Part shown: in pieces, positions 5,432 through 64,000 of the stretch
Numbering within the stretch: position 1 is the first letter of the stretch
How the letters are laid out: each line of letters starts with the position of its first letter
Assembly: GCA_024516035.1 (NCBI GenBank)
Contig: CM044958.1
Coordinates: 46,511,205-46,575,204 of the forward strand
Direction of reading: 5' to 3'
DNA: 64,000 nucleotides
DNA from: Bactericera cockerelli
Taxonomy: Eukaryota > Arthropoda > Insecta > Hemiptera > Triozidae
Notes under the pieces: generated by a model
Seen by the model: only the letters and a program-made list of their open reading frames with translations
Told to the model about the DNA's origin: nothing
Database searches by the model: none
Translations under genes and position numbers: made by a program

Positions 5432-6191
5432 TCATGGCAGAGGGAAACACTTGGAGCAGAACCAGTGGGAGCCAGCATTGAGCTGGATCTGGAAGTTGTC
5501 CCCCTTGAGGTAGCTCTGCACCGTGGCCTGCTGGGCGGGGTTGAGGCTCCAGTTGCCCAGGTTCCCCAGCTGCTTCAGCGACCGCCAGGACTTGAGCAGC
5601 TGCAGGATGCTGGCTTCACTGAGATCATTGTCCATCTCGTAGATGTAGAAGCACTCCATCTGGTGGGACAGGGCGGTGAGCGCGCTGAAGATTTTAGTCT
5701 CCAGGTGAGGAACACTGTGGACGTGCAGGGTGTGCAGACGTGGGGCGCTCTCCACGATGCGCAGCAGCGTGTCGCCTGGGACGAGTTTGCCGAGCTGGAC
5801 TTTCGCGAGTTGCGCCATCGGAATCTTTCTGCGTTCACTCCAGGAGAGCTCTGCGCCGTCCACGATGAGCATCTTCAAGTTGGGGCATGCGCGGAACACC
5901 TTGCTGAGATCGAGGCTGGCCAGGAACTCGCCGGGGTAGAACCGGAGGGTCAGGGCGCTGTAGGCGGCCCCCTGCGTGGAGAGGAACTCGTACAGGCCAC
6001 TCAGCCAGGAGGCCTCGCTGGGGATGTTCTGCAGCGCCAGGGAGGTGATGGTGGAGGGGAGGAGGTAGAGGGCGGAGGGGGAGTGGTTGGGCTCGTTGAT
6101 GGTGATCTTGTCCAGCTTCGGGCAGAGCTTGGAGATGAGCTGCAGACGACGCAGGGTGGTGCGGGAGCAGCGGACGGTCTTCAAGTCGAAT
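5432..6191 (-). CDS. LRR gene, last coding exon
   Basis: Begins after an acceptor (minus-strand 'cttctttcag') with the third base of a split AGA codon and runs 252 codons to TGA at 5432-5434. It encodes residues ~263-514 of the partial protein: FDLKTVRCS at the start, several leucine-rich segments, and a C-terminal CxxC. It is GC-rich against its surroundings. The long plus-strand frame over the same bases (5345-6328) is a shadow. Confidence 0.8.
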
Positions 6192-9100
6192 CTGAAAGAA
6201 GAGAAATAGCAGTGGTCAGAATTTTTTTTAGGGTTTGTCTACATACCCTCATAATTAAAACAGGTTTCTTTGTACATTTAGGAAAATATTATATTTGTCA
6301 TTTTATTGAATTAGTAATGAAATTGTAAACATACGAGTTGTACAAATGTGCTTGAAAACAAGAGTCCGTGTCATCGGTGTCATGTTCTTCTGATTTCATG
6401 TTCGGTCATAAACCGATAAACATTATTTTAATTGAACTTATGAAGTATTTTCTACCACGAGTCAGTCTACTGTGTTCTATGAGAGGAAAATAAGGTGAAA
6501 CACCAACTTTGTACACTCGACAGTGTCCAACTCACCTGAGATTGTCAATATGATGGTCATCAATGATCTCCATCGCCCGTCCGATGTGGCAGTACTCCCC
6601 CAAACTCTCGAGTGAGGGAACATTGTTGAGGGCGAGGATGATACCCTCACCGCTTACTCCGGTGTTGGCGATGTTGAGAACTCTCAGGGACTTGCAGAGG
6701 GGGGTGCGCTTCTCGCAGTACTCGAGGAGGAGCGGAGGGAGGTCCTTCTTGTCTCGTCGACTTTTGGACAGAAATCTGTCGTGCAGAGATCTGGGGAGGC
6801 AAAGTTTGAAGTTGTCAAATTTGTTGGAAGGTGCGACTGAAGGGGTGGCGGTCTATAAGTGCTAAATTTGAGGGAAAGTGTTGCTTAAGGGGCTTTGTTG
6901 CAATCTAATTTTTGTCTCTCAGGGCTGAATTATAAAACAGGACTAGATGTCCAGGTCCACACTATCCCTTAACTCGGGCTATAGTGCGCTGTGATTGGTT
7001 GAGAAGTGTTGCTAAAACGTTGAGAAGCAAGGTTTCAGTCAATGGAATTCAACCTTAGTTGATTCTAAAGGAAGAGCGGAGCATGAAACCAGTTAAACAG
7101 TTAAACAATTTGCAACGTTGCGAGACAAAAAAATTATACTACAAAGTATTACAAACAAACAAAATACAAACTCACCTGGCCAAATGTTTGATCCGACTCC
7201 AGCCCGACAGCTTCTTCCTGAGCAGACTCCCGGAGGCACTGCCCGCCCTCCTCCTCTGCTTGTCCCGGATCTCCACCTGGAACAGCAGCTGCCGGATGCC
7301 TGCGTTGGTCACCTGTCTGGAGTGCGACACGTCCAGCACTGTCAGGTTCGGACAGGCCACGCCCACAACCTCGAGGATGCCGTCGGTGGCAATGTTGCGC
7401 AGGCGCAGACACTTGAGATGCGGCGCGGCCAGGAGTGCCGAGTGGAGGAGGTTGCGATCTGTATTTACCAAACAAAAGTTGATCAGACCCTGTTTGCACA
7501 AAAGAGGTGGGGCGTACTCTGTAACATAATTTTATTTGAGATGTTGGTCGGTACCATAAGATTTTCATTTTTTTGTTTAAGAATAATACATCATGTAAAT
7601 GTATCATAGGTACAGATAATCATATCAAGCTGCTCAAAAACACCCTCCTTAACAGAATAGACAGTCCATACATAATATCAAAAATATATTTCAAAATACC
7701 TGACCCTAAACTGAGAATAGACCCAAACAAACTCTACAGCTGTCCAACATATATTATACCTTACATTCCTTATTATCACAGCCATGAAAGCATACAATGA
7801 CTTAGCCCACAAACCTGACCTTTTCCATCTTAATTTATGTATGAATGAGAAAAAGACTGCGTTAGTTATTGCTTGTTAATGCTTAAACGCTTAAAGAGTG
7901 TAATCGCAGTATGTTTTATTGGGAAAAAAGATTTTATCCAACTGAGAGAGATATGGAAGATGAAAGAGCCGTTCTCTTGCTACGTGCTTGAAGTAATGAA
8001 CAAAATTTGAATCCGATCACGGTAGCTTACTGAAAGATTAGGTTTTTAAATGCCACACTACAAGGTAGTACCTTGGGCGTCTTTAAAAGATATTTCCCTA
8101 ATCATTCTGTAGAAAAAAGGGGGGGAGTTTTCCAAGACGTTATATTTTTTTTGTGTGTTAAACAAAGCTCTGTAAAAAAATTTAGAACATACCTATCATC
8201 ACCCAAGAATGAGACTTTGTTTAGACTGTGAGAGTAAAAAGACTCTTTTGGGCCTAAAATAATATCAGACCCTTGAATTTTATAAACTGACTGTTAGGTA
8301 ATTACGCCAAAGTGACATACAGCTACAAAGTCCGGCTTAGAAATGCTTCATAATTCGGCTCTCAGTCTTATTCTTGCAGAATAAATAGAGTATTATACTG
8401 TATAATAGGTTAGGGGGTAGAGCATCCATCCGCGCCTAGTTAATAATTTCCACTAAAAAGTATTATTATTTATAATGAAGAATTGAAAATACAACTCTCA
8501 AATTCAGTAATCCCCTCCCATCCTACCATGAGCTCATTAATTTATGCTTCCAGAAAATGAGAATTTAGAAATGAGAATGTCTCGAGAATAATTTTATTAA
8601 CCTGGCATTCCTCATTGCACTACACTTGGACCCAAACTGTCGGGAGTTCATGAATTAAAAAAAAAAATGTTCATCTCAACCTGTCAGTGAGTGTAAGAGA
8701 CATGCTTTCCTACACTCACTCTCAAAATAAAAAAGCTCTACCAGTTGATCACAATGAGACACTTAAAAGAGCCTATTTTTTGAGGAGTACTGAAGTTATT
8801 TTTTGAGATTGTACATCAATCTTCTTAGGTATGGGAAAATAAAATCAGTATTACGAAAAATCTAAAGGAAATACAATTTTGAATGTTAGTTGTCATATTT
8901 GTGTGAATCACTTTCGTGATATCACAACTTATCAAACTAGCTTTACTAAATATTTGCTGAAACCGGGACTTGAACCACCGACCTCCAGGTTACAAGTCCG
9001 CCGCCTTATCGATCAAGCTACTGCTTGAAGGAGAAATTATCATGTCCTCATAATTTTGTGTCTCAGTGTAACTACAAGCTACAAGTATGATTTATATTAG

Positions 9101-12100
9101 TATGTACACAATAAAATTACACACTATACGTATGCTTACATTGCTTACACTATACCTATAGGTTTTACTCTCAGAATGTAAATGGGATTTGCGTGTTACG
9201 TTCACCAAAAATGCATTAATTAAATATATTATTATTTTTTTGACAAACAGGGTTGTTTGTTGAAGTACCTTCGTTTCCTCTTTCAATGGAAAATTCTCTT
9301 ACGTTCTTTAAAAAAAAAGTTTGCATATTCGAAATGTTTTGATGGCAAATTTAGAGTCGTTTTATGTATTGAATTGTGCCTTCTCTGTAAAACTTTCGTA
9401 AGTTGTATACTGTTTCGTGTGCTGGGGCCATTTAGCAAAAAATGTCAGTAATTTGTAGCTCGAGTTCTAATTTTTAATGTTTCTTGAGAAAGTTTGTTCC
9501 TTTTTCCATGTTAATTAGAGTTTGAGGAATAATTACATGTAGATGAGGATTTTTTTTGTACCATAGGTCTGAACGAACATACCTGTAGTTATGTCTTAAT
9601 AATTTGCTCTTAGGACAGTATAATGAAACAGGATTAGTAAATCTAAGCCGACTCTTAGATTTCATCAGCTTAATCTCATCAGCCTAAGTGGGGCCCATCA
9701 CGAGGGTTCGAAGGGTACTTTAAATACATACAAAAGTTATTATATGTATGGTATTAACAACAATCGTCATGTCACAATTACTCAAACTCGCCTGAATAAT
9801 ATCTTGCTGTACGAGAGACTCGAACCACCGACATCAAGGAGTCTGCTGTTTTAGCTGTGGAACTACTGAGGTCGAGACTTTACAGTCTAGCCTACATTAT
9901 GAGAAACTTAACTGTTGTAAAATTGTATGAACGCCGTATAAATATACAGTTATGCAATGCGCCATGAACAGGTTTTCTATCGAATTTTTGTGTCGGGTTA
10001 TTCTTAAATTTCTAGATAGTGTCATCGTTAAAGATTCTATTATATAATGTTACCATGAATAAATTTCTTTTATGCCTCTAGTTTTCACATTGAGTCACCA
10101 TCATTAGAGCATTATTCTGGGATTGGTCCATTGTATAAACTACTTCGTCCGTTTAGTTTGTGTATTGCCTTGATGTGTTTTTTTCACATCAGTTTTAACG
10201 ACTTGTTTTTACTCTAAACTTTTATTCAATGCATACATTTTCCATTTATTTTACCTCCCCTGATGTATATTTTCCATTTATTTTGCCTTTCATGCGTACA
10301 TTTTCTATTATAAGCGGTGTTTAACAAAAGGAAAAGAGTTCAAAATGCATTTTAAATCAAGTTGACCACTAGTATTCCGTGTCCTACTGTGGAGGTTTGT
10401 GTTTGCAGTCATAACACACGGGTGTATTTCCTCTGTACTTGGTGTCTTCACATGCAATCTATGTTTCCTTCCTCTTCTGCACTCTCTCTCTCTCTCTTTT
10501 CCTCCCCCCTTTCTCTCTCTTTCCCATCTCTCTCAATCTTTCCCTCATTTTCTTCGTCCTCCTCTCCCCCTCCGCCTCACTCTTTCCCTCTCCTTGTTTT
10601 TCTTTCCTATCTCTCTCACTCTTTTCCTCATTTTCCTTGGTTTTCTCTCTTGCCCACCCCCTCTCTTTATCTCTGTTTTACCCTACCTTCTCTCGCTCTC
10701 TCTTGAAAAATCAGTCACACACAAAAAATTCCATTTACAATTTAAAAGTTCTGATGTAGGTACTAGGAGGTTAATTATCATGTAACCAATTTAAAGTAAA
10801 TAATTAAATATCCCTCCCCTGTTCTCTTCTCTCTTTTTTGTTTCGCTTATTTATTCCCCTTCCCCCCGTTCTCCCTCCCTTAATCACTGCTCTTTCTCTC
10901 TCTCTCTTTTCTTTCTTTGTCCTTCTTTCGTTCTATATTTCCCTATTGTCTAAACGTTTGCCATATACTCACATACCCGCTAACATAAATACCAGCTCAA
11001 TGTCCTTGCATATTGCATACTCACAAAGCACTATCATAATATATTTTCGTAGCGCAGGAGTAGTATTGTGTGCGAGATTTTCTGTTTGAAGATTAGAAGG
11101 TGTGCGCGAGGAAACAATACCCAAAACTTGTAATTTATTGTTCAATTAAAAGCGAGAGAGAGAGCTAGTTGTTTATGTAATTGTGTCACAATTTTTAGTG
11201 GGTAGCATCAACATTACGAGAACTGATGCTAATGCATCATATCTTAAAATCAACCATCATATTCTTATCAATCTCGTTATGTCGCCTTCTTCTTCTTCTA
11301 ATGCCTATCCTTTTCGAATGTTGGCTATCATTTGGGCTATCTTCACTTTATTTACAGCTAGTCGGAATAGTTGGGTAGTTGTCTGGTTATACCACGTTCT
11401 TAAATTTTTCTACCAAGAGATCCTCCTCCTTCCTGGTCCTCTTTTGCCAAAAACTTTTCCTTGTAATATGTTCTGTAGTAGTTGGTACCGATTTTCATTT
11501 CGCATAATGTGGCCAAGGTATTGCAGCTTCTTGATTTTGACTGTATCTAGCACTTCAGTATTTTTTCTCATTCTTCTCAGGATCTCAGTATTTCGCACTT
11601 TATCTTTCCATGACACTCTGAGTATTCTGCGGTACAGCCATAACTCGAATGCCTCCAGTTTTTTGGATGAGGCTTCTGTCAAAGTCCATGACTCTACTCC
11701 GTAAAAGAGGATTGAAAAAACGTAACAACGCAATAATCGTACTTTTAAATCTAAATTCAGAGCATGACTCTTAAATAACTTGCTCATTTTAATGAATGCT
11801 GTTCTTGCCTTTTCAATTCTTATTTTAATCTCTTTTGAGCTATCCCAGTCTTCATTTATGTTTGTACCAAGGTAAGTATACTGTTGTACTCTTTCTACTG
11901 GGTTACCATCTATGATTAGATTACCTTGTAAATTACGGTTTTACTTATGATCATAAATTTGGTTTTCTGGATGTGCATTTCAAGACCATATTGTTTACTA
12001 TAAGCATTTACTTTATCCATTAGAGATTGTAGACTAGAAAGGCTGTCTGTAAATATGACTGTATCATCAGCATACCTGATATTGTTTATTTTCTCCCCGT

Positions 12101-14324
12101 TTAACATGATACCACTTTGTGTGTCCAAGAGAGCCTCTTTAAATATAAATTCAGAATAAAGATTGAACAAGACGGGGGATAAGATACATCCTTGACGTAC
12201 ACCTTTAAGGACCTGAAAGGTATCTGTATTTTCTCCATCAACATTTATTGTTGCTAGCTGATTCCAATAAAGGTTGCTGATTATTTTGAGATCTCTGGAG
12301 TCGATTCCGGTCTTTTTGAGTACATCAATCATTTTGAGGTGTTGAACATTATCAAAAGCTTTACGTTAGTCAATAAAGCATGCATAAACGTCGCAATTAA
12401 CGTCCCTGCAACGCTGAAACAATACTTGAATGCAGAACAAGGCCTCACGAGTTCCTACCGCTCTTCTGAAACCAAACTGTGTGTCCGAAATCTGTTCTTC
12501 ACATTTATTATAAATTCTGCCATGTATGATTTTCAAGAACATTTTCAACAAGTGGCTCATCAAACTGATGGTTCTGAAATCACCGCATCTCTTTGCTCCA
12601 GCTTTTTTTGGCAGTATTATGAATTCTGATTTTAACCAGTCTTGCGGAATTACCCCTCTGGAATAAACTTTGTTGAATATTTCGGTGAGCCACTTTAAGT
12701 TATCCACATCAAATAGTTTTATAATTTCAGCAGGTATATTGTCAGGTCCCAATGCCTTTTGATCTTTAGAGTTTTTCAATGCTGTCTCAACTTCTTCTTC
12801 TAGTATCTTAGGTCCACTATCTCCCTCAATAGTTGGTGGGTCGACTGGTCTTTCATCGTGAAATACTTCTTTCACATACGTTTCCCACATTTGTCTGATA
12901 GTATCCTTATCTGTTATAATCTTATCATTATTGTCAGTTAGTATATTGATTGTTCTCTTCCTCATTGTTCCTGTGACTTCTTTAACTTTCTTGTGAAGAT
13001 TGAAGCTATCGCCTTTCAGTTGACACTTTTCTGTTATGCCGCCACTGGTCGTTAATTTTATTCACGAGGTTAGGGTAGACCCCGACATCCAAAGTACAGA
13101 GCCCAAAAATATTCCGACCCACCGGGTCTCCTGGAGTGCAAGCTAAGCATGCTACCGCTAGGACAATGTCACAACTTATTCTCCTAATAACGCCAATATT
13201 GTATGTATGTATGTATGTACGAATTTCTTTGTGGTGAAGCACAAGGCCTCTTCACAATTTTTGTGGGTAGCGCAGCATTACTAAGAGCCTCCTTTACATT
13301 TCGAATTATTCTATTACATTAATTTCTTTTTACTCTGGTAATGCCGCCACTGGTCGTTACTCATACAAGTAACTACTCATTTTTCCTCACGAGGTATGAG
13401 TGGACCCCGAACATCCAAGTACAGAGCAGAAAAAATCCTCCCCCGCTGGGAATCGAACCCAGGTCACCATGTGTGCAATGCCTAGCGCGCTAACTCGCTC
13501 TGCCACAGTGACTACTTAATAACGCCAATATTGAACATTAGAACCCTCGCATTGGCATCTTTGAAAGCATAGCATTTCGAATAGCCATTACCAACCAAGT
13601 CTTGACGTTGTTGGACGTTATTTAGTTTCCGTGATCCAACGAGAAATGGTATCAACGTTCCATCGACGCTGAATTTTCTTCTCTTTTAGATGGTGTGTAT
13701 GCTAAATTAATAAGAAACTTTATGCTGGTCTACTATCTTTCTGGATCCCAATTAAACTTAGGTAATCACTCCAGAAAACCGAGAGAGATATGGAATTCAA
13801 AAAAAGCCCAGCTAGAGTCGATGGCACGTCGAATACACCAGTTCAATTACATAAGTTAAGCAACATCCAGCGAGGCTAGGACTTGGATGGGTGACCATTG
13901 AAATACGGACCCTCGTAATAGTGTTGGCTATTCCCGGCCGCACTCAGAGGGGGTGAGATTAAAATAACCTGTTAGCTGGTTTGTGAGTTTCCAGCGAATG
14001 GAAAGTAAAGCGCCCGTTATGATATGACCAAGCAGTTGAAAGCGACGTTAAACCCAAAAAGAGTTATTTCCCTTACCTAATCGCAGAAGGGCAGAGCGGG
14101 CCAGCTCGAGCGACTCCAGGCCCCGCCCCTCGGTGGCCAACAGTTTGAGAAGCGCTGACTGGTGGCTGCACCCATAGTAGCAGCAGAGGTCCACGCGGAG
14201 GTGTTTGATGTCGGGCGAGAGGAGGAGCGCCAGGAGGTAGAGGGGGATAGGCCCCGCCCCCACGGAGGCGGTCTCTGTGAAGGAGGTGCTGATGAGGGAG
14301 GTGGCGTCCTGCAGGATTCTGGAC
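5432..14324 (-). CDS. Leucine-rich-repeat protein (F-box/LRR-like), four C-terminal exons
   Basis: Exons 14324-14077, 7458-7176, 6790-6536 and 6191-5432 are joined by GT-AG introns with matching phases. They give about 514 residues ending at a TGA. Repeated leucine-rich segments of the form LxxLxLxxx run through most of it, for example HLKCLRLRNIATDG and NLTVLDVSHSRQVTNAG in exon 2, SLRVLNIANTGVSGEG in exon 3 and NLKMLIVDGAELSW in exon 4. The layout resembles the curved repeat domain of F-box/LRR adaptors. No F-box is visible, because the N-terminus is not in the exons I can find. The protein ends HWFCSKCFPLP. A basic stretch (KQRRRAGSASGSLLRKK) interrupts the repeats in exon 2. The role is probably protein binding, possibly ubiquitin-ligase substrate choice, but that is inference. 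I cannot name an ortholog. Confidence 0.75.
6536..6790 (-). CDS. LRR gene, internal exon
   Basis: Acceptor 'gcctccccag' precedes 6790 and donor 'gtgagttgg' follows 6536 on the minus strand. The 255 bases start by completing AGA and end on AG, so the exon keeps the frame with both neighbours. It encodes RSLHDRFLSKSRRDKK, a leucine-rich repeat, and ends HHIDNLR. Confidence 0.8.
6922..7060. repeat. Short dispersed element, family J, in LRR-gene intron
   Basis: Contains 'gggctgaattataaaacagg', 'ggctatagtgcgctg' and 'tgattggttgag', shared with copies near 14350-14518, 14640-14780 and 47880-47990. It looks like a MITE but is degraded here. Confidence 0.5.
7176..7458 (-). CDS. LRR gene, internal exon
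   Basis: The minus-strand acceptor '...aatacag' at 7459-7460 and donor 'gtgagttt' at 7175-7170 bound 283 bases. The first two bases complete a GAT (Asp) begun in the upstream exon; the last two (AG) begin an Arg. It encodes two clear leucine-rich repeats followed by a basic, glutamine/arginine-rich insert and IKHLAR. Confidence 0.8.
7459..8894. other. LRR-gene intron, no feature recognised
   Basis: AT-rich intron sequence between the exons at 7458 and 14077. A fragment near 8330-8400 ('cttcataattcggctctcag') resembles a family J end. Nothing else is recognised. Confidence 0.5.
8895..9027 (-). repeat. tRNA-like SINE, family E
   Basis: Read on the minus strand it has the family E head: 'agtagcttgatcgataagg' near the A-box and 'ggtggttcaagtcccgg' near the B-box. 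The tail is 'gtgatatcacaact'-like. Confidence 0.65.
9028..9761. other. Intron sequence, nothing recognised
   Basis: AT-rich. Several open frames of about 60 codons (for example 9257-9451) have no protein-family features and probably arise by chance. Confidence 0.5.
9762..9876 (-). repeat. Degraded SINE, family E
   Basis: Shares 'actcgaaccaccgac' and 'ctactgaggtcg' with other family E copies. The tRNA-like head is eroded. Confidence 0.55.
9877..10469. other. Intron sequence, nothing recognised
   Basis: AT-rich, with a twofold repeat of 'tacattttccatttattttgcc'-like text near 10230-10290. No exon is seen. Confidence 0.45.
10470..10930 (+). repeat. Long polypyrimidine (C/T) tract in two blocks
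   Basis: 10470-10715 and 10808-10930 are nearly pure C/T on the plus strand, mostly (CT)n and T-rich runs. Three overlapping open frames rich in Ser, Leu, Phe and Pro arise only from this composition. Confidence 0.8.
11283..13036 (-). pseudogene. 5'-truncated non-LTR retrotransposon (LINE), reverse-transcriptase remnant
   Basis: Minus-strand fragments read as one endonuclease/reverse-transcriptase-type LINE polyprotein: an upstream linker (12965-12366), the RT palm with the catalytic motif IRYADDTVI and the preceding KGVRQGCILSP (12332-11916), and the C-terminal part with YGVESWTL and RRILRVSWKDKVRN (11787-11410). It is broken by an in-frame TAA near 12363, a 1-base frameshift near 11935 and a TAG near 11409. 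The original stop appears to be TAG at 11305-11307. The element then ends in a short GAA-type tail at ~11283-11300, as in RTE-like LINEs. The 5' end is cut at ~13036, with no endonuclease domain. It lies in the LRR-gene intron in the same orientation. Confidence 0.8.
13036..13165 (-). mobile_element. tRNA-like SINE (family A variant) abutting the LINE
   Basis: Read on the minus strand it has 'cctagcggtagcatgct', a B-box-like region around 'ggagacccggtgggtcgg', and the family A body 'aacctcgtgaa...gccactgg'. Its end meets the truncated 5' end of the LINE with no spacer. Confidence 0.6.
13230..13514 (-). mobile_element. tRNA-derived SINE, family A
   Basis: Near-complete copy on the minus strand. 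Its head is 'agtcactgtggcagagcgag' with 'gggttcgattccc'; its body is 'tcatacctcgtgaggaaaa'; its tail variant has 'aggaggctcttagtaatg'. Confidence 0.8.
13556..13672 (-). repeat. Fragment of 5S-rRNA-like SINE, family D
   Basis: Complement of 'ccatcgacgctgaa' through 'cttgacgttg'. It is a degraded version of the 5S-like head seen at 13812 and 34151. Confidence 0.5.
13812..14060 (+). mobile_element. SINE with 5S-rRNA-like head (family D)
   Basis: The first ~110 bases track a 5S rRNA sequence: 'gttaagcaac' followed by 'acttggatgggtgacc', which is the 5S internal control region. After a ~140 base body it ends 'agcgacgttaaacccaaaaa'. The tail ends only 16 bases from the LRR exon boundary at 14077. 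Confidence 0.75.
14077..14324 (-). CDS. LRR gene, most upstream exon found
   Basis: On the minus strand the acceptor 'cgcctccacag' precedes 14324 and the donor 'gtaagg' follows 14077. The exon opens with one base of a split codon, then SRILQDATSLISTSFTETAS, continues with DIKHLRVDLCCYYGC and ends SALLRL plus one base. Since it starts mid-codon after an acceptor, at least one further upstream exon with the start codon must exist. I could not find it. Confidence 0.75.
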
Positions 14325-14349
14325 CTGTGGAGGCGAAGGAGGAATAGAA

Positions 14350-14518
14350 TCAGGCCAAATTATGAAACAGGATTAGATTAACTAATCCTACACTATTCCT
14401 TAACACGCCCTCTGGTGGAAGTTTCAACCAATCACAGCGCATTTATCAGATTTTAAGTGATAGTGGCTTGGATTAACAAATCCTACATATTTAATCCTTC
14501 ATAATTCAGCCCTTAAGC
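14350..14518. mobile_element. MITE-like element, family J
   Basis: The ends 'ggccaaattatgaaacagg' and the complement of 'cttcataattcagccc' form imperfect inverted repeats. The core has 'caaccaatcacagcgca', a CCAAT-type motif conserved in other copies. It lies ~25 bases upstream of the LRR exon acceptor. Confidence 0.55.
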
Positions 14519-54366: not shown

Positions 54367-54473
54367 GTGACGTCAGAGGTTGCCGACTTCAATCTGCTCT
54401 GGTCAGGTCTTCATCCTAAACCTCAGACCCTGCGATCTCTAGCCCCTCATCAGAAGGTCAACCATTTTCCTAG
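54367..54473 (+). CDS. TTLL5-like exon A
   Basis: Follows acceptor 'ctgtttcag' and ends before 'gtatgtg'. It encodes [18 protein letters not shown] and continues to KVNHFP plus two bases of a split Arg. It starts mid-gene, so an upstream exon must exist. Confidence 0.8.
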
Positions 54474-57400
54474 GTATGTGCTGAGGGTCCAATGTATAAC
54501 CTTATTGCCAAAAGTTGAATTCCAACTATAAATTTTTGGCTAAATTGCTCACACAGAAATTTTGACTCTCATGGTCCAACATTTAACTTTTTCGTCAAAA
54601 ATTTCTGCCCAAACCGAGAATTGAACTCAGGTACTCTTTACCATGAGCAGTAGTCACAACCGCTACACTACGGAGACTGGAATCGACGGATTACAATTTT
54701 ATTCTGTTCATTCTATCACTGAGTGCAACACCTTGTCTCGAAACGTTTCGAAGCATTTCTCATTGGCTCAAACATTGCTTAGCAACACTTCGCAACAAAA
54801 TTCAAGACAAAATGTTGCGAAACATCTTGAAACAAATGTTGCGCTCAAGGAGATCATTGCTCCCTTCAACACTTTGCAATAAAATTCAAGACAAATAATA
54901 ATCATTATTTATCGCCTTATTTATACTGCCCGATTAGGACTAATGAGTCCTATTATTTAAGCACAAGACGTATTATTATGTGGTCTCTGCGGAGCTAAGT
55001 CTAGATTTAGCGTACTGACTTATTAGTAATAATAATAGTTTATTTATTTATTTTCTTTATAAAGAAACATTTATACAAAGGTACTTCTCCTAAGCTTTGA
55101 AGAGCTTCTAAGAGCTTGGGTCAAAATCCCAAATGGGAGGATAACTTGTCATGTCCCGGCTGAGTTTCGAACCCGCATTTTCGACCTCTGGATTACCAGT
55201 CAGGGCGACGCTGGCTGAACCATTCTGTTCCTCCTCAGATCGTACGAGCTGACTCGCAAGGACCGGCTCTACAAGAACATAGAGAAGATGCAGCACTGCA
55301 AGGGCTTCAAGCACTTTGACTTCATCCCCTCCACCTTCGTCATGCCCGGGGACTTCAGGGAACTCACCATCAGCCACTATCGAACCCGCGGACCCTGGAT
55401 TGTGAAGCCCGTGGCGTCCTCCCGCGGCCGCGGCATCTACATTGTGGATACGGTGAGTTGTGTTCCTGTTCTGTAGGGTGGTGGACACGGTGAGGTGGTG
55501 TTCCTGTTCTGTAGGTGGTGGACACGGTGAGTTGGTGTTCCTGTTCTGTAGGGTGGTGGACACGGTGAGTTGGTGTTCCTGTTCTGTAGGGTGGTGGACA
55601 CGGTGAGTTGTGTTCCTGTTCTGTAGGTGGTGGACACGGTGAGTTGTGTTCCTGTTCTGTAGGGTGGTGGACACGGTGAGTTGGTGTTCCTGTTCTGTAG
55701 GGTGGTGGACACGGTGAGTTGGTGTTCCTGTTCTGTAGGGTGGTGGACACGGTGAGTTGTGTTCCTGTTCTGTAGGGTGGTGGACACGGTGAGTTGGTGT
55801 TCCTGTTCTGTAGGGTGGTGGACACGGTGAGTTGTGTTCCTGTTCTGTAGGGTGGTGGACACGGTGAGTTGTGTTCCTGTTCTGTAGGGTGGTGGACACG
55901 GTGAGTTGGTGTTCCTGTTCTGCAGGTTGGTGGACACGGTGAGTTGGTGTTCCTGTTCTGCAAGTTGGTGGACACGGTGAGTTGGTGTTCCTGTTCTGTA
56001 GGTTGGTGGACACGGTGAGTTGTGTTCCTGTTCTGTAGGTTGGTGGACACGGTGAGTTGGTGTTCCTGTTCTGCAGTTTGGTGGACACGGTGAGTTGGTG
56101 TTCCTGTTCTTGCAGGTTGGTGGACACGGTGAGTTGGTGTTCCTGTTCTGCAGGTTGGTGGACACGGTGAGTTGGTGTTCCTGTTCTGTAGGGTGGTGGA
56201 CACGGGTGAGTTGGTGTTCCTGTTCTGCAGGGTGGTGGACACGGTGATTTGGTGTTCCTGTTCTGCAGGTTGGTGGACACGGTGAGTTGTGTTCCTGTTC
56301 TGCAGGTTGGTGGACACGGTGATTTGATGTTCCTGTTCTGCAAGTCGGTTAACACGGTAAGATGGTGTTCCTATTTACATAGCTATCAAGCTATAGAAAC
56401 TTTACCGTAATAGTCTCCGTAACAGAGGAGCACACTAGGATTGCACGCACGGTGACCTGGGGTTCGAATCCCAGCGCAGTCGAAAGTTTTCGTCTCTGTA
56501 CTTTGGCTGTTACGGGGTCTACTCATACCTTATGAGCAAAAATAAGAATTTAGATTGGATATTCAAGGAGAAGAAAAAGTTCTGTAATTCTGCGCTACCC
56601 ACTTAATTTGTATAATAACACAAAGTAACACTTTATGACATTACTATTTCGTAAAAATTCAATCATAACAGCCATGTTGATAAGATTCTTAAGTGATTCA
56701 ATGCCTCGGCACTCAGCGGATTATGTATTCAGTATTCATCATTGCACATTGTCTACCTACTAAATTTACACGGCGCGCATATAAATGACGCAATTTATTC
56801 TTAGCACTGCAGTTTGCAGTTCAGTTCATATAATTTCCTATTTAATTGAATTATTTCACTACAACCTTTTTCTATTTTATTTTCAAACTTTGCTTCTCTC
56901 TAGATAATCATGTCTAATACTTTGTAGAAAAGTATAAATTACTCATACTATCCAGTTGGTAGCAATTTTTTTTTTTTAATCTAATTTGAATCTGTCTTAC
57001 ATGAAATTGATCTTTCGTTAATTACGAAAGATGCATTGGAAATGTGATATTTTCATTTTCATCGTATCTTCGCGAATATCTTTTACATGCAAAGTATTGT
57101 AAGCTCACAATGAGCTAAGAGGTATGTGTACCAGCTTGCCATGCGGATGCGGAAAGGCCCCGGGTTTGATCCCCAGAGCCGACAAAAATATTGTATACAA
57201 AATTTGGTACAGTTATTGTTAAGAAATAACTTCCGGTGCCCTCGTGTAGTCATACCACGAGATGAGCAAAACTGCAACACAGACAACAAGAGCTGCTACG
57301 ACAGCTGCTGGTTCATGGCTTAGAAATAATAGAAAAGGCTGTGAAACTCTCATTTTTTAAAATAATAAAATACATATTAATACAACTGAACAATATTCTA

Positions 57401-57791
57401 TGCTGTTCTACTTTATTTCTTTGCATTCCATTTTATTCTATTCTGTCCCATTCCATGCTATTCAATGTTTATTCTTATCATTATTCTCATTCTTATTCTA
57501 TCTTTTATTTTCTATTCTATTCCATAGCCGGAAGAAGTGCCTCTAGAAGAGTCAGTGGTGGTCGCCAAATACATCGACAAGCCTCTCCTTGTCTCGGGTC
57601 ACAAGTGCGATCTCCGCCTCTATGTGGTTGTGACGTCATACGACCCACTCATCATTTATATGTACGAGGAGGGACTGGTCAGGTTTGCCACGGTCAAGTA
57701 TGAGGAGGGGAGGAAACACTTGTGGAACCCCTGCATGCATCTCTGCAACTATTCCATCAACAAACACCACTCGGACTATATCAAGTAAGTG

Positions 57792-57853
<62 letters not shown>

Positions 57854-57960
57854 TCAAGGTCAAGTATGAGGAGGGGAGGAAACACTTGTGGAACCCCTGC
57901 ATGCATCTCTGCAACTATTCCATCAACAAACACCACTCGGACTATATCAAGTAAGTGAGG

Positions 57961-57992
<32 letters not shown>

Positions 57993-60900
57993 GCGTGTGG
58001 CCCTGCGACCGAAGAGTATGGCCGATTTTAACAAAAACATTTTTGGTTCGTTTGTTATATAAAATCAATTTCCATACCGAATTTTAAGTCTTTAGCTCGG
58101 ACGCATGAATCAAGTGCTGAAAACAACGTTTTTGGTATCCTGAGGTTATGATTCGTCCAGAAATGTGAAAAAATGTGAAGGTCAAATTTTCGACGGATAC
58201 AATATAGGATCAGGAAAATAAATAACGATTTATTTATTTGATGGGATATTGATTCCTAACTATTACATAAAGAAATACCTTATCGAATAAAGTACGAAGA
58301 AAAAAAAGAAGATGGTTAATTATATCCTAGCTGGCTTACAACTAAACTTAGAGTAAAATTATTTTCTACAATATCAACAAAGTAATAGGAACTTTTATGT
58401 CTCTCTACCAATTTGTTCCATAAGTTACGGATAACTCATAGACAGATCTAATATTTCTTAGTAAAATTGTTCAATGTTGATAGTATGCAGCTTAGTGATT
58501 TAGCAAAATTACTCTGCCTTTTCTCCGAAGCTCTTCAAGTTTAACTAATTAATGTAAACCCCCCAGGAGTGAGGACCCAGAGGCGGAGGACGTGGGTCAC
58601 AAGTGGACTCTGAGTGCTCTGCTACGCCACCTACGCTCCTGTGGCGTCGACACTGGCTCCCTCATGCAGAGGATAGAAGACGCTGTGATCAAGGCAGTCC
58701 TAGCCACCGCGCCGTCCATCATAGCTGCCTGCAAACTGTTTGTGCCTCACTTTAGCAATTGTTTCGGTGAGTCTTGAGTAACACTTAAGCTAGACAGGAC
58801 TTATAACTCTATCATACAAAGAATTCAATTGATCAAATCGTCCATGATAGCTGCCTGCAAACTGTTTGTGCCTCACTTTAGCAATTGTTTCGGTGAGTCT
58901 TGAGTAAACTTAAGCTAGACAGGAATCATAACTCTATCATACAGAGAATTCAAGTGATCAAATCGTCCATTATAGCTGACTGCAGACTGTTCGTGTCTCA
59001 CTCTACCTCATAAATAAATACCTCTCACTGTGAGATACACGTGCTGTTTTACGGACACGCAATAATAATAAAAATACTCTTTAATGGAATTTAACCACCA
59101 GGCGAGGTGAGGTTACCTTCCATTAATGCTCATAGCATTTTTCACTACCTAAACCTCAGAGTCTTATTATTATGTGGTCTAAACTCAACTTAATGAGGAA
59201 AAATTCGTGCACTCGGTGGAATTCGAACCAACGAATTTTTACGCTAGCTGGATTACCAGACTAGCGCGTTATTTTATTTATTTATTTAGAAACTCTTTAT
59301 TAGTAGAACATAAATATATACAGACAAATAATGGTAAAAATTAAATATAAAATTAACAATATTAATAATATAAACAAGAAAAAATTAAATAAAATATATA
59401 CATATGTCCTAACTAAAGGGCGGGGTTATTGCCTATGGCAATCTCTTCCACCCAACGCGTTAACCTCTTACCTCCCAGTTACTAACGATGCATTTCTACT
59501 ACAAAAGTTTTATAATCAAGCCCTGGTTCCTCCCTCAGAGCTGTACGGGTTCTATAATCAAGCCCTGGTTCCTCCCTCAGAACTGTACGGGTTCTATAAT
59601 CAAGCCCTGACTTCTCCCTCAGAGCTGTACGGGTTCTATAATCAAGCCCTGACTTCTCCCTCAGAGCTGTACGGGTTCTATAATCAAGCCCTGATTTCTC
59701 CCTCAGAGCTGTACGGGTTCTATAATCAAGCCCTGACTTCTCCCTCAGAGCTGTACGGGTTCTATAATCAAGCCCTGACTTCTCCCTCAGAGCTGTACGG
59801 GTTCTATAATCAAGCCCTGATTTCTCCCTCAGAGCTGTACGGGTTCTATAATCAAGCCCTGACTTCTCCCTCAGAGCTGTACGGGTTCTATAATCAAGCC
59901 CTGACTTCTCCCTCAGAGCTGTACGGGATCTATAATCAAGCCCTGACTTCTCCCTCAGAGCTGTACGGGTTCTATAATCAAGCCCTGATTCCTCCCTCAG
60001 AGCTGTACGGGTTCTATAATCAAGCCCTGATTCCTCCCTCAGAGCTGTACGGGATCTATAATCAAGCCCTGACTTCTCCCTCAGAACTGTACGGGTTCTA
60101 TAATCAAGCCCTGATTTCTCCCTCAGAGCTGTACGGGTTCTATAATCAAGCCCTGACTTCTCCCTCAGAGCTGTACAGGTTCTATAATCAAGCCCTGATT
60201 CCTCCCTCAGAGCTGTACGGGTTCTATAATCAAGCCCTGATTTCTCCCTCAGAGCTGTACAGGTTCTATAATCAAGCCCTGATTTCTCCCTCAGAGCTGT
60301 ACGGGTTCTATAATCAAGCCCTGACTTCTCCCTCAGAGCTGTACGGGTTCTATAATCAAGCCCTGACTTCTCCCTCAGAGCTGTACGGGTTCTATAATCA
60401 AGCCCTGATTCCTCCCTCAGAGCTGTACGGGTTCTATAATCAAGCCCTGACTTCTCCCTCAGAGCTGTACGGGTTCTATAATCAAGCCCTGACTTCTCCC
60501 TCAGAGCTGTACGGGTTCTATAATCAAGCCCTGATTCCTCCCTCAGAGCTGTACGGGATCTATAATCAAGCCCTGATTCCTCCCTCAGAGCTGTACGGGT
60601 TCTATAATCAAGCCCTGATTCCTACCTCAGAGCTGTACGGGTTCTATAATCAAGCCCTGACTTCTCCCTCAGAGCTGTACGGGTTCTATAATCAAGCCTG
60701 ATTCCTCCCTCAGAGCTGTACGGGTTCTATAATCAAGCCCTGACTTCTCCCTCAGAGCTGTACGGGTTCTATAATCAAGCCCTGACTTCTCCCTCAGAGC
60801 TGTACGGGTTCTATAATCAAGCCCTGACTTCTCCCTCAGAGCTGTACGGGTTCTATAATCAAGCCCTGACTTCTCCCTCAGAGCTGTACGGGTTCTATAA

Positions 60901-63507
60901 TCAAGCCCTGACTTCTCCCTCAGAGCTGTACGGGTTCTATAATCAAGCCCTGACTTCTCCCTCAGAGCTGTACGGGTTCTATAATCAAGCCCTGACTTCT
61001 CCCTCAGAGCTGTACGGGTTCTATAATCAAGCCCTGATTCCTCCCTCAGAGCTGTACGGGTTCTATAATCAAGCCCTGACTTCCTCCCCAGAGCTGTACG
61101 GGTTCTATAATCAAGCCCTGACTTCCTCCCCAGAGCTGTACGGGTTCGACATTCTCATAGACTCGGACCTGAAGCCCTGGCTCCTCGAGGTGAACCTGTC
61201 CCCCTCCCTGGGGTGCGACACCCCCCTGGACACCCGGCTCAAGTCCGCCATGCTAGCCGACACCCTCACCCTAGTGGGCCTCCCCGCCCTGGACCCCATG
61301 ATCCGGCACAACTCCACCAAGCGCTCCCCCTTCCTCTCTTCTAGTCACACGGTGAGTGGGTCCTAACCTCACCCAGCCTCCTTCGGGTAGGGAATGCCGC
61401 TCTTACACTAGTTGCATTTAAAAAAATTCTATAGTATTTACTTTTACACATAATATATGTACATACATAATTCAATTTTTCCATTTAAATTTACTAATTA
61501 ACGTATGTCACCTTTGTCATTGATTTGCATGCTGGCATAACTCCTTTGATACCCCAGCAGGTGTAGACAGTACCATAAAAAATATGAAGATTACAAGTAC
61601 AATTATTCTCACTATTATTGTGATCTGGTTTCATTTCAACGTTTATTTATTTATTTTTATTTATTTAGAAACTCTTTATTAGTAGAACATATATACAGAA
61701 AAATAATGGTAAAAATTAAATATAAAATTGACAATATTAATAATATAAACAAGAAAAAAATAAATAAAATATATACATATGTCCTAACTAAAGGGCTATT
61801 GCCTATGGCAATCTCTTCCACCCAACGTTCACCCATTTCATCTCCCCCCCAGGGCGGGCGTCGTGTGCGCTCGGCAGATTCTCTCCCGGGGGCCCGAGGC
61901 AGGGGCAGGGGGGGCAAGCGCCCCTCTGCGCCCCCCACCTTCCCCGCCACCCCCCTCTCCCTCTCCCCGGATGAGGCGCGCCTGGTGAGGATGGCGCGCG
62001 CTCAGTTTGAGAGGCGCGGGGGCTTCATCCGCATCTTCCCCTCCCGGGAGTCCTGGAAGCGGTACTCCTGCTACCTGGGTGAGTAGTGATAATAATTCCG
62101 TGTCCGTGAGATAGGTATTGATACCTAAATTACGGTGGTGAGAGGATTATATGGACGCCCAGATCCAATGTCTAGGCTCCTTTCATGTCCATTGATTCTA
62201 TTTGGTTTTAACGTCCCGACTTGAGGTAGACAGGACGGGGGTTTTACCCTCCATTCGCTGGGAATCGTACCAGCTACCCACATTAACCTCACCCAGCCTG
62301 GCTAGGGCCGGAATTTGCTAGCCTCACATGTTCGGAGGGAACAGAAGTTTCTGTGCGAAAAGTCTGCTCCAACCGGGAATCGATCTCAGGATCTCTGGAC
62401 TACGGGCAGTAGTCACAACCGTTACGCCACGGAGGCTTGTGTGTATGTTTGTGTGTATAGTAGTAGAGTAATAATAGTCATAGGGCCGACGTCGGCGCCG
62501 GACTTTCACACCAAAATGATTGTTTCCTTTCAAGACTTTAAATTAACTTCACCCAGCCCGAGTGGGGTCAGCAATAGTCAGCATCACGAGGGTACGCATT
62601 GAAATGGGTTACCCATCGTTGTCCTAAACTCGCTGGACGTTGATTAACTTTAGTGACAGAAGGTGACCTGGGTTTCGACTCCATGTTGTTTGTGTTCTTT
62701 GTTATAACTATTCAATTCAATTCAATTTATTTACTGTGAACAAATTTAATACATAAAGTATGTGTTTCACACCAAGATTAGGTACTATACTAAAATAAAT
62801 TAGTTAATTAAAATTATTATCTAGAATTAGTATTAAAAATGTCAAAAAAAACGCTTGCATACGAGTCTGCAACCATTGGGACATTTTCATCTTTACTATT
62901 CAAGTTTCGTTACATAATTTCGTTACATAATTTCGTCACATAATTTCGTTACATAATTTCGTAACATAATTTCGTCACATAATTTCGTTACATAATTTCG
63001 TTACTTAATTTCGTTACATAATTTTGGTTATGTGCCAGAGCAAAGACATGAAAATGTCAATATCGTTACATAATATCGTTACATAATATCGTTACATAAT
63101 ATCGTTACATAATTTCGTTACAAATTTCGTCACATAATTTTGGTTATGTGCCAGAGCAAAGACATGAAAATGTCAAAAATAGGTTATGTTCCGTAAATAT
63201 ACAATACCTGACGGTAGCATTACAATATCTAAGTATACAACACCTAACGGTAGCATTACTCTTGCAGACCCCGCCACCGGGATCCCCAGCACGGGCAACA
63301 TGCAAGCCATCAACATGTACTCCGCCCACAACTACAACCTCCTCCTGCACCAGACCCTCTTCCCCCGCCCCCTCGCCTCCAGGCCCCGCCCCCTCGCCTC
63401 CAGGCCTCTCCCCCTCCCTTCCGTCATATCCGCCGAGAAGTTGAGTCGCTATGAGCGGGCGCTAGGCAGGGGACATCGCGTCAGTCTGGAGGGGACCTCA
63501 TCCTCAG
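54367..63507 (+). CDS. Tubulin polyglutamylase, TTLL5-like (seven exons, partial)
   Basis: Exons 54367-54473, 55239-55452, 57528-57784, 58567-58766, 61134-61351, 61853-62078 and 63268-63507 have GT-AG borders and consistent phases. They join to ~487 residues. TTLL5-type enzymes add glutamate chains to tubulin tails, so the likely site of action is microtubules, basal bodies and cilia. Visible landmarks: NHFPRS-type N-lobe entry (~33-37), the ATP-grasp strand [19 protein letters not shown] (~87-105), [13 protein letters not shown] (~135-147), HLCNYSINK (~178-186; most family members have HLTNYS), [10 protein letters not shown] (~260-269) and the metal-binding [10 protein letters not shown] (~276-285). 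A later [14 protein letters not shown] block (~390-403) is typical of the region after the TTL core in TTLL5. The N-terminal exon(s) and the C-terminus are not in view. The family call is firm; TTLL5 rather than another glutamylase is likely. Confidence 0.88.
54893..55205 (-). mobile_element. SINE family C, interrupted, next to TTLL5 exon B
   Basis: Family C pieces at 54893-54983 and 55120-55205 are separated by ~136 bases of unrelated AT-rich sequence. The tRNA-like head ends ~33 bases before the exon B start, so the element supplies much of the DNA in which the branch point must lie. Confidence 0.65.
55239..55452 (+). CDS. TTLL5-like exon B (ATP-grasp core)
   Basis: Acceptor 'gttcctcctcag', donor 'gtgagttg'. 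The first base completes the Arg codon from exon A. Encodes [13 protein letters not shown] and then the ATP-binding [15 protein letters not shown], ending IVDT in phase 0. Read-through past the donor meets TAG eight codons later. Confidence 0.88.
55441..56360 (+). repeat. Tandem array of the exon B donor, ~24 units of 36-39 bp
   Basis: Each unit holds 'gtggacacg|gtgagttg', copied from the exon B end (gtggatacg|gtgagttg), followed by 'gttcctgttctgtag', which looks like an acceptor. About 24 further donor-like strings follow the real one, and the last has decayed to 'aacacggtaag'. Large minus-strand frames here (up to 415 codons) are artefacts of the repeat. Confidence 0.92.
56361..57104. other. 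TTLL5 intron; SINE A-like copy, otherwise unassigned
   Basis: 56425-56600 is a family A-like SINE ('gcacgcacggtgacctgg', 'ggttcgaatcccagcgc', 'actcataccttatgagc'). The rest of the intron is AT-rich. Confidence 0.55.
57105..57350 (+). mobile_element. SINE family G in TTLL5 intron
   Basis: 'caatgagctaagaggtatgt', 'ccgggtttgatccccagagc', 'aacttccggtgccctcgtg' and tail 'aaaaggctgtgaaactctc'. It ends ~175 bases before exon C. Confidence 0.7.
57528..57784 (+). CDS. TTLL5-like exon C
   Basis: Acceptor 'ttctattccatag', donor 'gtaagtgagg'. Encodes [17 protein letters not shown], then [23 protein letters not shown] and HLCNYSINK, and ends with two bases of a split Lys. Confidence 0.88.
57692..58000 (+). 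repeat. 166 bp duplication of exon C end, donor and GT microsatellite
   Basis: 57692-57857 (last 93 exon bases, donor, GT-run) is repeated from 57858, giving a second exon-like block 57858-57950 with an identical donor at 57951 and a second GT-run. Extending exon C to the second donor adds 166 bases and breaks the frame. Confidence 0.92.
58001..58566. other. TTLL5 intron, nothing recognised
   Basis: AT-rich intron. Confidence 0.45.
58567..58766 (+). CDS. TTLL5-like exon D
   Basis: Acceptor 'aaaccccccag', donor 'gtgagtc'. Completes Lys, then [19 protein letters not shown], continues through [15 protein letters not shown] and ends [11 protein letters not shown] plus G. Confidence 0.88.
58713..59008 (+). 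repeat. ~125 bp tandem repeat of the exon D end, 2.4 copies
   Basis: 58713-58838, 58839-58963 and 58964-59008 are successive copies. The first two carry the last 54 exon bases, the donor 'gtttcg|gtgagtc' and ~70 intron bases. The third is more diverged and stops before the donor. Confidence 0.9.
59061..59272 (-). mobile_element. SINE family B in TTLL5 intron
   Basis: Reversed family B with 'ggtggaattcgaaccaacg' and 'ctcagagtcttattattatg'. A repeat of 'ggcgaggtgaggttacc' is inserted in its tail. Confidence 0.7.
59276..59470 (-). repeat. Family H element upstream of the exon E array
   Basis: Same sequence as 61645-61850 ('aaactctttattagtagaac', 'catatgtcctaactaaaggg', 'gcctatggcaatctcttcc'), both reversed relative to 33585-33768. 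Confidence 0.75.
59511..61144 (+). repeat. 42 bp array of the exon E acceptor, 39 acceptor copies
   Basis: Each 42 bp unit contains 'ttctccctcag|agctgtac', the exon E acceptor with its first codons. Acceptor copies run from 59539 to 60673 at exact 42-base steps (28 copies). One unit is 41 bases, and ten more 42-base steps lead from 60714 to the exon start at 61134. The array is open as 14-residue repeats ([14 protein letters not shown]) until the short unit. The 456-codon frame over it is a product of the repeat. Confidence 0.95.
61134..61351 (+). CDS. TTLL5-like exon E (metal-binding core)
   Basis: The last of 39 acceptors, 'ttcctccccag', precedes AGCTG. With the G from exon D it restores Glu. 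Encodes [19 protein letters not shown], then [13 protein letters not shown], and ends SSSHT before 'gtgagtg'. Glu and Asn of EVN are the expected magnesium ligands. Confidence 0.88.
61352..61644. other. TTLL5 intron, nothing recognised
   Basis: AT-rich intron start. Confidence 0.45.
61645..61850 (-). repeat. Family H element directly upstream of exon F
   Basis: Near-identical to 59276-59470 and ends just before the exon F pyrimidine tract, so the same element precedes two successive acceptors. Confidence 0.75.
61853..62078 (+). CDS. TTLL5-like exon F (post-core basic region)
   Basis: Acceptor 'tctccccccccag', donor 'gtgagtag'. Encodes a low-complexity basic stretch ([12 protein letters not shown]), then [16 protein letters not shown] and [16 protein letters not shown], and ends YLG split. 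The second half matches the conserved block after the catalytic core. Confidence 0.85.
62085..62438 (-). mobile_element. SINE family F in TTLL5 intron
   Basis: Full-length reversed family F ('ccgtgtccgtgagatagg' tail to 'gttacgccacggaggct' head). It starts about 7 bases after the exon F border, right behind the donor. Confidence 0.8.
62528..62662 (-). repeat. 5S-type SINE (family D) fragment
   Basis: 'cccagcccgagtggggtc' and 'ggttacccatcgttgtcc', continuing to a reversed 5S-like 'gttgattaactttagtgac'. Confidence 0.6.
62905..63180 (+). repeat. ~16 bp tandem repeat in two blocks with a duplicated spacer
   Basis: 'cgttacataatttcgtcac'-type units (and 'atatcgttacataat' variants) fill 62905-63023 and 63060-63138. 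A 36 bp sequence starting 'tttggttatgtgccag' follows each block. Confidence 0.8.
63268..63507 (+). CDS. TTLL5-like exon G
   Basis: Acceptor 'attactcttgcag', donor 'gtaattg'. Completes Asp, then [19 protein letters not shown], a proline/arginine-rich stretch made by a 21 bp in-frame duplication (RPLAS twice, near 63366-63407), and [17 protein letters not shown]. Assignment to the same gene rests on phase, strand and GC content. The segment is less conserved than the core. Confidence 0.7.
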
Positions 63508-64000
63508 GTAATTGAATTGAAATAGAGAATAATAGGTAATTGAATTGAATTGAGTCGCTATGAGCGGGCGCTAGGCAGAGGACATCGCGTCAGTCTGGAG
63601 GGGACCTCATCCTCAGGTAATTGAATTGAAATAGAGAATAATAGGTAATTGAATTGAAATAGAGAATAATAGGTAATTGAATTGAAATAGAGAATAATAG
63701 GTAATTGAATTGAATTGAGTCGCTATGAGCGGGCGCTAGGCAGAGGACATCGCGTCAGTCTGGAGGGGACCTCGTCCTCAGGTAATTGAATTGAAATAGA
63801 GAATAATAGGTAATTGAATTGAAATAGAGAATAATAGGTAATTGAATTGAGTCGCTATGAGCGGGCTCTGGGTAGGGGACATCGCGTCAGTCTGGAGGGG
63901 ACCTCGTCCTCAGGTAATTGAATTGAAATAGAGAATAATAGGTAATTGAATTGAAATAGAGAATAATAGGTAATTGAATTGAAATAGAGAATAATAGGTA
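63440..64000 (+). repeat. Tandem copies of the exon G end and a 28 bp intron repeat
   Basis: The last ~65 bases of exon G and its donor recur at 63552-63616, 63717-63781 and 63849-63913, each followed by 'gtaattgaattgaaatag'. Between them a 28 bp unit repeats, itself ending 'aatag|gtaattg', so more donor-like strings are added. The array continues past the window edge. Confidence 0.92.

Follow-up and report, generated by a model that had tools for sequence, protein, structure and literature searches.

We have analysed a stretch of 64,000 nucleotides from the hemipteran insect Bactericera cockerelli (the window, 46.51-46.58 Mb of contig C4 in the 565-Mb assembly G000), which ends within a gene whose exon borders lie repeatedly inside tandem arrays. 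Judged by its sequence this gene is TTLL5, a tubulin polyglutamylase. Its joined exons encode a tubulin-tyrosine-ligase domain (PF03133, E 5.8e-87), the resulting protein aligns through its junctions, with small gaps only, with solved TTLL6 structures, and its top match among predicted proteins is TTLL5 from Diaphorina citri, a member of Psylloidea (identity 90%, covering the whole query), the runners-up by score showing 70-72% identity. The Diaphorina citri protein P0001, with its 90% identity, served as the tblastn query that set the exon borders, and these were also checked by alignment to solved TTLL structures and by the reading frame, which is intact through 11 exons and ends in a stop codon. 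The remainder of the gene sits in the 20 kb following the window, and no TTLL5 exon was located upstream of exon A.

The original prediction, made from the sequence alone, had proposed five splice-site-spanning arrays in this gene, at the donors of exons B, C, D and G and at the acceptor of exon E. All five were found by Tandem Repeats Finder (TRF), which was used to locate the arrays in the window, and their borders were confirmed (Table 1). The four copies counted at exon G hold inside the window only; the array continues beyond it, 10 copies being recognised over its whole length in addition to that of the exon itself, and its units of 109, 132 and 165 bp hold 28-bp GT...AG subunits. In the exon B array the GT is intact in all 23 recognised copies besides the exon's own, the exon C duplication covers the exon end, the donor and the (GT)n behind it, and each unit of the exon E array includes a pyrimidine tract, CAG and some 14 nt of exon sequence. 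Downstream of the window, further arrays lie at the donor of exon I (copies mostly 68 bp apart), the donor of exon J (99 bp, 10.2 copies) and the acceptor of exon K (63 bp, 8 copies).

As a result, 8 of the 21 recognised TTLL5 borders lie within a tandem array. When birth segments were placed randomly over all positions that leave the exons intact, 1.3 of the 11 arrays would be expected to span a border, compared with the 8 that do (exact P 1.8e-6, or 4.8e-7 without two small arrays adjoining larger ones; both values are post hoc, this gene having been chosen because it was striking). The claim that these are separate border-spanning duplications, beyond what random placement gives, is supported. 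Repeats with a score of at least 80 and a period of at least 14 occupy 43% of the 23 kb holding TTLL5, compared with 3.2% of window positions 1-54300 and 0.8-14% of five 10-kb stretches elsewhere (of which four had been placed at round positions in advance and the fifth at a contig end).

We then turned to two samples, which define the scope of all the counts of arrays and borders that follow: two gene families in this one genome. The search for the TTL family gave 44 exon matches, from which 30 loci were taken with 1.5-kb flanks (three of these are TTLL5 itself and were excluded from the TTL count), and the search for the myosin head gave 77 matches, from which another 30 loci were taken in the same way. 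Border-spanning arrays extend beyond TTLL5 to other TTLL genes and to myosin genes. When the blind sets described below are included, nine separate myosin regions were seen to have contiguous border arrays (two on C1, one on C3, three on C7, two on C8 and one on C9); for all genes read, border arrays lie on six contigs (C1, C3, C4, C7, C8 and C9), with units of 17-166 bp. A single myosin exon of about 230 bp (L046) is accompanied by 14 acceptor copies and about 50 donor copies. In a TTLL gene on C3 an 85-bp acceptor array is present in both of two paralogues, and the same gene also has a donor array of about 107 bp (L016, L029, L098). The 94-bp array common to L038 and L039 also reads, by eye, as the donor of the preceding exon.

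Not every array close to an exon was counted. L039, automatically called as border-spanning, was dropped on reading, its array stopping about 12 bp inside the intron. L042 has acceptor copies that are not contiguous with the exon, the array at L040 contains myosin-like coding sequence of a neighbouring exon, and that at L081 adjoins an acceptor without including it. L043, with a 20-bp GT...AG unit, was excluded because its exon end is ambiguous.

Overall, 24 of 153 borders were spanned, compared with 2.1-3.4 expected from the background array density. The 153 comprise the 21 borders of TTLL5, 60 myosin sides, 38 borders from the first blind set described below, 27 from other multi-exon TTL genes and about 7 from an LRR-like gene of the window. 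Leaving out TTLL5, the count was 16 of 132 (1.8-2.9 expected); by the same density TTLL5 itself should have 0.29-0.47 spanned borders, and the myosin exon ends, with 9 of 60 sides spanned, 0.83-1.34. The background was 0.19-0.31 arrays/kb (20 arrays with a score of at least 80, or 32 with a score of at least 60, in 104.3 kb), the tally was entered by hand from the sequences as read, and the expected counts take as unit length the mean for 23 border arrays, possibly longer than average. In the automatic border call, 8 spanning arrays were found at 44 myosin borders, compared with 0.78 expected, and none of 20000 simulations gave as many; reading the sequences took L039 out of this tally and brought the donors of L046 and L053 in, giving 9. 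The original prediction had set the overlap of tandem repeats with splice sites against random expectation, and in the two-family samples the outcome that would have spoken against it, an overlap no greater than expected, did not appear.

Two further sets were drawn blind, both from the same two families and mostly from the same genes. For the first, 20 myosin exons were picked from the match list before their DNA was inspected and 19 were used, since L087 was recognised as an extra copy of an exon. Here 5 of 38 borders were spanned (the donors of L070, L072, L075 and L076 and the acceptor of L086), compared with 0.53-0.85 expected (P 2.2e-4 to 1.8e-3; these Poisson values are too small, as borders of the same gene and of paralogues are treated as independent). 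The second set, of 12 more exons (9 myosin, 3 TTL) outside the 153 borders, had 4 of 24 borders spanned, at the donors of L090, L092, L098 and L100. L092 and L098 had been seen earlier in flanks and L090 is a paralogue of L076; the L100 donor array (26 bp, 7.9 copies, in a TTLL gene on C7) is wholly new. A check by eye of six-frame lists of open reading frames gave no additional multi-exon gene suitable for testing.

Table 1. Exons and arrays of TTLL5, border arrays read in myosin loci, and other features; positions without a locus number are those of the window
Feature	Position	Strand	Unit and copies	Basis or remark
TTLL5 exon A (first found)	54367..54473	+		tblastn with P0001, frame; borders without array
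TTLL5 exon B	55239..55452	+		tblastn, TTLL structure alignment, frame
Exon B donor array	55444..56372	+	38 bp x24.7	TRF
TTLL5 exon C, end TATATCAA|gtaagt	57528..57784	+		tblastn, frame
Exon C donor duplication	57683..57999	+	166 bp x1.9	TRF
TTLL5 exon D	58567..58766	+		tblastn, frame
Exon D donor duplication	58713..59002	+	125 bp x2.3	TRF
Exon E acceptor array	59507..61147	+	42 bp x39.1	TRF
TTLL5 exon E	61134..61351	+		tblastn, frame; donor without array
TTLL5 exon F	61853..62078	+		tblastn, frame; both borders without array
TTLL5 exon G	63268..63507	+		TRF, tblastn, frame
Exon G donor array	63441..64000, on past window to L033 position 1443	+	nested	TRF
L036 myosin donor array			17 bp x2	read from sequence
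L037, neighbouring exons			donor 77 bp x7, acceptor 85 bp x3	read from sequence
L046 myosin acceptor array			113 bp x14	read from sequence
L046 myosin donor array			22 bp x45	50 surplus copies recognised
L048 myosin acceptor array			38 bp x3	read from sequence
L053 myosin donor array			83 bp x3	read from sequence
L055 myosin acceptor array			155 bp x2	read from sequence
L058 myosin donor array			30 bp x10	read from sequence
L059 myosin donor array			37 bp x33	read from sequence
L064 myosin acceptor array			63-bp unit, 21 surplus copies	read from sequence
In-frame coding repeat in exon G	63363-63416		21 bp x2.6
Array in TTLL5 F-G intron	62905-63140		13 bp, TTTCGTTACATAA
Array in TTLL5 G-H intron	L033 1972-3661		114 bp; 7.4 copies for first part, 1972-2810	TRF copy number
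70-bp array	469-1454		70 bp x14
LRR-like gene, multi-exon	5345-7531 and 14051-14359	-		label from reading translation
Repeat within coding exon of LRR-like gene	6041-6080		21 bp, two copies
Open frames resembling LINE-type reverse transcriptase	11413-12365	-		by eye
TGCTGGTCTACTCCCTGTTTATAGTCCCCCAGCCAGAC minisatellite sites	L013 827-1473, L018 1786-2451, L019 1328-1434, L054 718-792, L078 46-120		38 bp

The border arrays do not follow a simple sequence rule. The suggestion that duplication centres on AG|GT is not supported: the array-bearing donors of exons B, C and D read CG|GT, AA|GT and CG|GT, and those of exons A and H read AG|GT yet carry no array, AG|GT being present at the array-bearing donors G, I and J. 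The 20 non-border arrays lean slightly to donor-like and acceptor-like motifs (percentiles averaging 0.41 and 0.42, with 0.5 as background), and outside TTLL5 the GC content of arrays is slightly above background (for example, 0.39 compared with 0.36 in random stretches); in TTLL5 it is 0.49 compared with 0.43. Neither GC content nor splice-like motifs offers an obvious explanation of the border bias.

At several borders the copy number differs between paralogues, and therefore the duplication process looks recent when the sequences are compared. TCTG|GTGAGTTCCAGAC is present twice in L036 but once in L035, a paralogue of 96-98% identity; the L048 acceptor is covered by three copies, compared with one in the paralogue L049 (90-92% identity over flanking blocks); and the copy counts of L053 and L055 are unequal at one donor and one acceptor. 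In the pairs L028/L029 and L038/L039 a common border array has unequal copies, 13.4 and 6.0 in the former and 6.1 and 4.9 in the latter. We infer that these differences are gains rather than losses. Read by eye rather than taken from the automatic script, the microhomology at young duplication junctions is 0 bp in L036 and L076, 0-1 bp in L055 and 2 bp in L048; at the TTLL5 exon C duplication it is about 5 bp. Note that L035/L036, L038/L039, L048/L049, L053/L055, L028/L029, L006/L007 and L011/L012 are paralogous blocks of about 90-99% identity, often on one contig and some inverted, which are either recent segmental duplications or uncollapsed haplotypes.

In the two-family samples, segments that include an exon border are found tandemly duplicated far more often than other DNA, an association that holds for the chosen and the blind samples alike. 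A mechanism that favours borders is argued here from array densities. The explanation we favour, and consider reasonably probable, is that these are minisatellites anchored on splice junctions, arising by a border-biased tandem duplication and then growing into the introns. The first duplication would be a product of break repair, in which staggered breaks are filled in and the ends joined. The near absence of microhomology in the five young cases (0-2 bp, once about 5) is what would be expected of filled-in staggered breaks, and our analysis suggests that this origin is probably the right one; the step is proposed by analogy with human and mouse cells, in which fill-in of break ends followed by end joining gives small tandem duplications (PMC8355091). 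The array would then expand through slippage or unequal exchange, and it could do so only into the intron because the copy on the exon side must remain intact. In the arrays that were read, the surplus copies sit on the intron side. The original junction would remain the coding junction, and therefore the gene is not destroyed, as the intact frame of the 11 TTLL5 exons illustrates. The surplus donor and acceptor copies may be mainly passive, lengthening the introns, each of them being a potential decoy splice site. Candidate sources of the border preference are nicks associated with transcription or splicing, and the chromatin at exon edges; the R-loops named in the original prediction would be another. 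A stronger version is that splicing or transcription breaks DNA at borders in this lineage, which would make junctions genome-wide duplication hotspots, with about 1/6-1/8 of the sampled borders carrying arrays and new ones arising between recent paralogues; we regard this only as a tentative possibility.

Several results weigh against a border-biased origin. The other multi-exon TTL genes had 2 of 27 borders spanned (0.38-0.60 expected), both in one paralogue pair; before this count, 7 of 34 TTL sides (L006-L010, L014 and L025) had been removed for their intron-poor look and long open frames. The automatic call at the TTL loci gave 1 spanning array at 23 borders, compared with 0.48 expected (P 0.39), and the LRR-like (leucine-rich-repeat-like) gene on the minus strand of the window had an array at none of its approximately 7 borders, by eye and by the TRF list. 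In addition, 24-mers with a nearby second copy show no excess at borders (10/66, compared with 632/3971 in introns), the expected numbers rest on the border arrays' own unit lengths and on an assumed independence of borders, and the sampling covers two gene families only. Finally, not one of the 222 surplus copies recognised across 11 arrays has lost its GT or AG. A naive test of this conservation (0/444 changed compared with 214/4884 elsewhere, Fisher 8e-9) was discarded since the copies are not independent; tests by column gave P 0.04 and 0.07, which leave room for selection on the copies.

Some of these points would suit ordinary minisatellites shaped by tolerance, with a uniform duplication rate, exonic duplications purged, those in introns and at borders surviving, and the borders being merely the places where they can be recognised. 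Exon interiors are indeed poor in nearby second copies (24 of 644 24-mers), as purging predicts, the repeat share at borders equals that of introns, and the TTL loci taken alone fit. However, the flat coverage arises because long arrays fill the introns, and the excess is in the position where arrays are anchored, not in repeat coverage: from the end of the exon match, 10 array edges (the miscalled L039 included) fall within 100 bp towards the exon, compared with 35 within 1400 bp towards the intron. An equal birth rate does not predict 24 spanned borders, nor the outcome of the myosin simulation, even with its one wrong and two missed calls. Selective tolerance, which the original prediction had offered among its explanations, does not by itself yield a 7-11-fold excess over the background density, and we consider it unlikely as the whole explanation, though the most serious of the alternatives.

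The intact GT and AG, together with the column tests, would also be expected if the copies were functional, raising splicing efficiency, regulating alternative splicing or, at exons E and K, adding in-frame peptide repeats; the units there are 42 and 63 bp long and the frame is open over 148 codons directly upstream of exon E and 50 upstream of exon K. This is improbable, however, because unit lengths are blind to the frame (6 of 28 divisible by 3, P 0.23), one 41-bp unit disrupts the frame of the exon E array, L072 has copies with AT for GT and one L070 copy has a changed donor, and the predicted Diaphorina citri protein has no repeats inserted at the array-bearing junctions. Moreover, if translation is carried on beyond the exon at the six TTLL5 donors that have an array, the frame closes after 2-16 codons, and a protein made by way of a surplus donor would therefore be cut short. 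Taken together, the sequences suggest that the surplus copies are mostly passive.

The same stops tell against active intron formation by duplication of AG|GT-containing segments, another of the original suggestions. A border-crossing tandem duplication did make a new intron in a potato gene, as far as the part of the report used here goes (PMC4974935), and some units in our arrays do read GT...AG, such as the 28-bp unit at exon G and the 20-bp unit of L043. Yet the spanned borders are pre-existing junctions of conserved exons, the B, C and D junctions have no AG|GT, and most surplus exon fragments, by eye, do not have the partner site they would need to be exons. GT...AG units of 20-38 bp are also probably below spliceable length. 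Intron birth under way at this locus is thus very improbable. Hardly credible, in turn, is an artefact of assembly or scaffolding that multiplied exon-end sequence. The assembly does contain near-identical paralogous blocks, some possibly uncollapsed haplotypes, but the copies have diverged through substitutions and indels that form patterned runs, the border arrays were read on six contigs, and two paralogue pairs (L028/L029 and L038/L039) have a common border array with different copy numbers.

Other repeats were observed in and around these loci. Within TTLL5, the coding repeat in exon G lies where the protein exceeds its Diaphorina citri counterpart by 9 residues, the large G-H intron array lies away from the borders, and a motif similar to that of the F-G intron array is present at L008 582-611. 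Near the start of the window, the unit of the 70-bp array has strong acceptor-like motifs, CTTACACAG and CTTCCTTCCAG, as well as AG|GTAATG; the array has no recognised coding exon beside it. Also on the minus strand of the window are open frames resembling a reverse transcriptase of the LINE (long interspersed nuclear element) type. The 38-bp minisatellite TGCTGGTCTACTCCCTGTTTATAGTCCCCCAGCCAGAC and its variants recur near genes on C1, C7 and C13; this looks like a dispersed element, in contrast to the locally derived border arrays.

Change in introns is usually ascribed to point mutation, transposons and rare duplications. Splice junctions that are duplicated again and again make it possible to ask directly if exon edges suffer DNA damage from splicing or transcription, and the arrays can show how the spliceosome handles dozens of near-equal sites in series, with paralogue pairs that have one or several copies as natural experiments. 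In genomes of this kind, exons may also be put in the wrong place by gene prediction and by read mapping. In the open-licence literature on duplicated or repeated sequence involving splice sites or introns, on psyllid genomes and on repair, searched by titles and the beginnings of abstracts and with subscription papers outside the search, no description of splice-junction-anchored arrays on this scale was found.

Compared with ordinary minisatellites or variable number tandem repeats, the border arrays are alike in their head-to-tail units, which fall within about 10-170 bp, and in a copy number that varies between paralogues, and unlike in being anchored on splice junctions 7-11 times above the prediction from background density. 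The border units that were read also differ from introners, which recur at unrelated genes, in carrying the coding sequence of their own exon (no genome-wide search for the units was made). The remaining comparisons draw on parts of the reports cited. The fill-in and end-joining duplications (PMC8355091) are also short and tandem with near-blunt junctions, but were shown in human and mouse cells where breaks had been induced, and have no tie to splice sites there. In Tetrahymena, the 90-bp exon arrays of leucine-rich-repeat genes (PMC6564038) have repeat units that contain splice sites; there, whole coding exons and introns build a protein repeat, whereas in the present arrays no more of the exon than its end is repeated and the surplus is intronic. 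The near-intron pairs of Drosophila (PMC2891723) are likewise small duplications beside splice sites in insect genes, although older and deduced from proto-splice-site similarity, with no arrays seen in that material. In the model of Rogers, as given in PMC4974935, a duplicated AGGT-containing exon segment yields an intron; tandem duplication likewise adds extra GT and AG to the genes described here, but the units straddle existing junctions, and AG|GT is missing at the donors of exons B, C and D. The closest parallel in kind comes from the potato RNA-dependent RNA polymerase gene (PMC4974935), where a two-copy tandem duplication across an intron-exon boundary produced a new spliced intron. 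As in that gene, the duplicated segment crosses an existing border with its splice signals, so that a junction and the exon and intron sequence flanking it lie inside the duplication. Unlike the single event in potato, the duplications here are many, reach up to about 50 copies and affect donors as well as acceptors, with no sign of a new intron.

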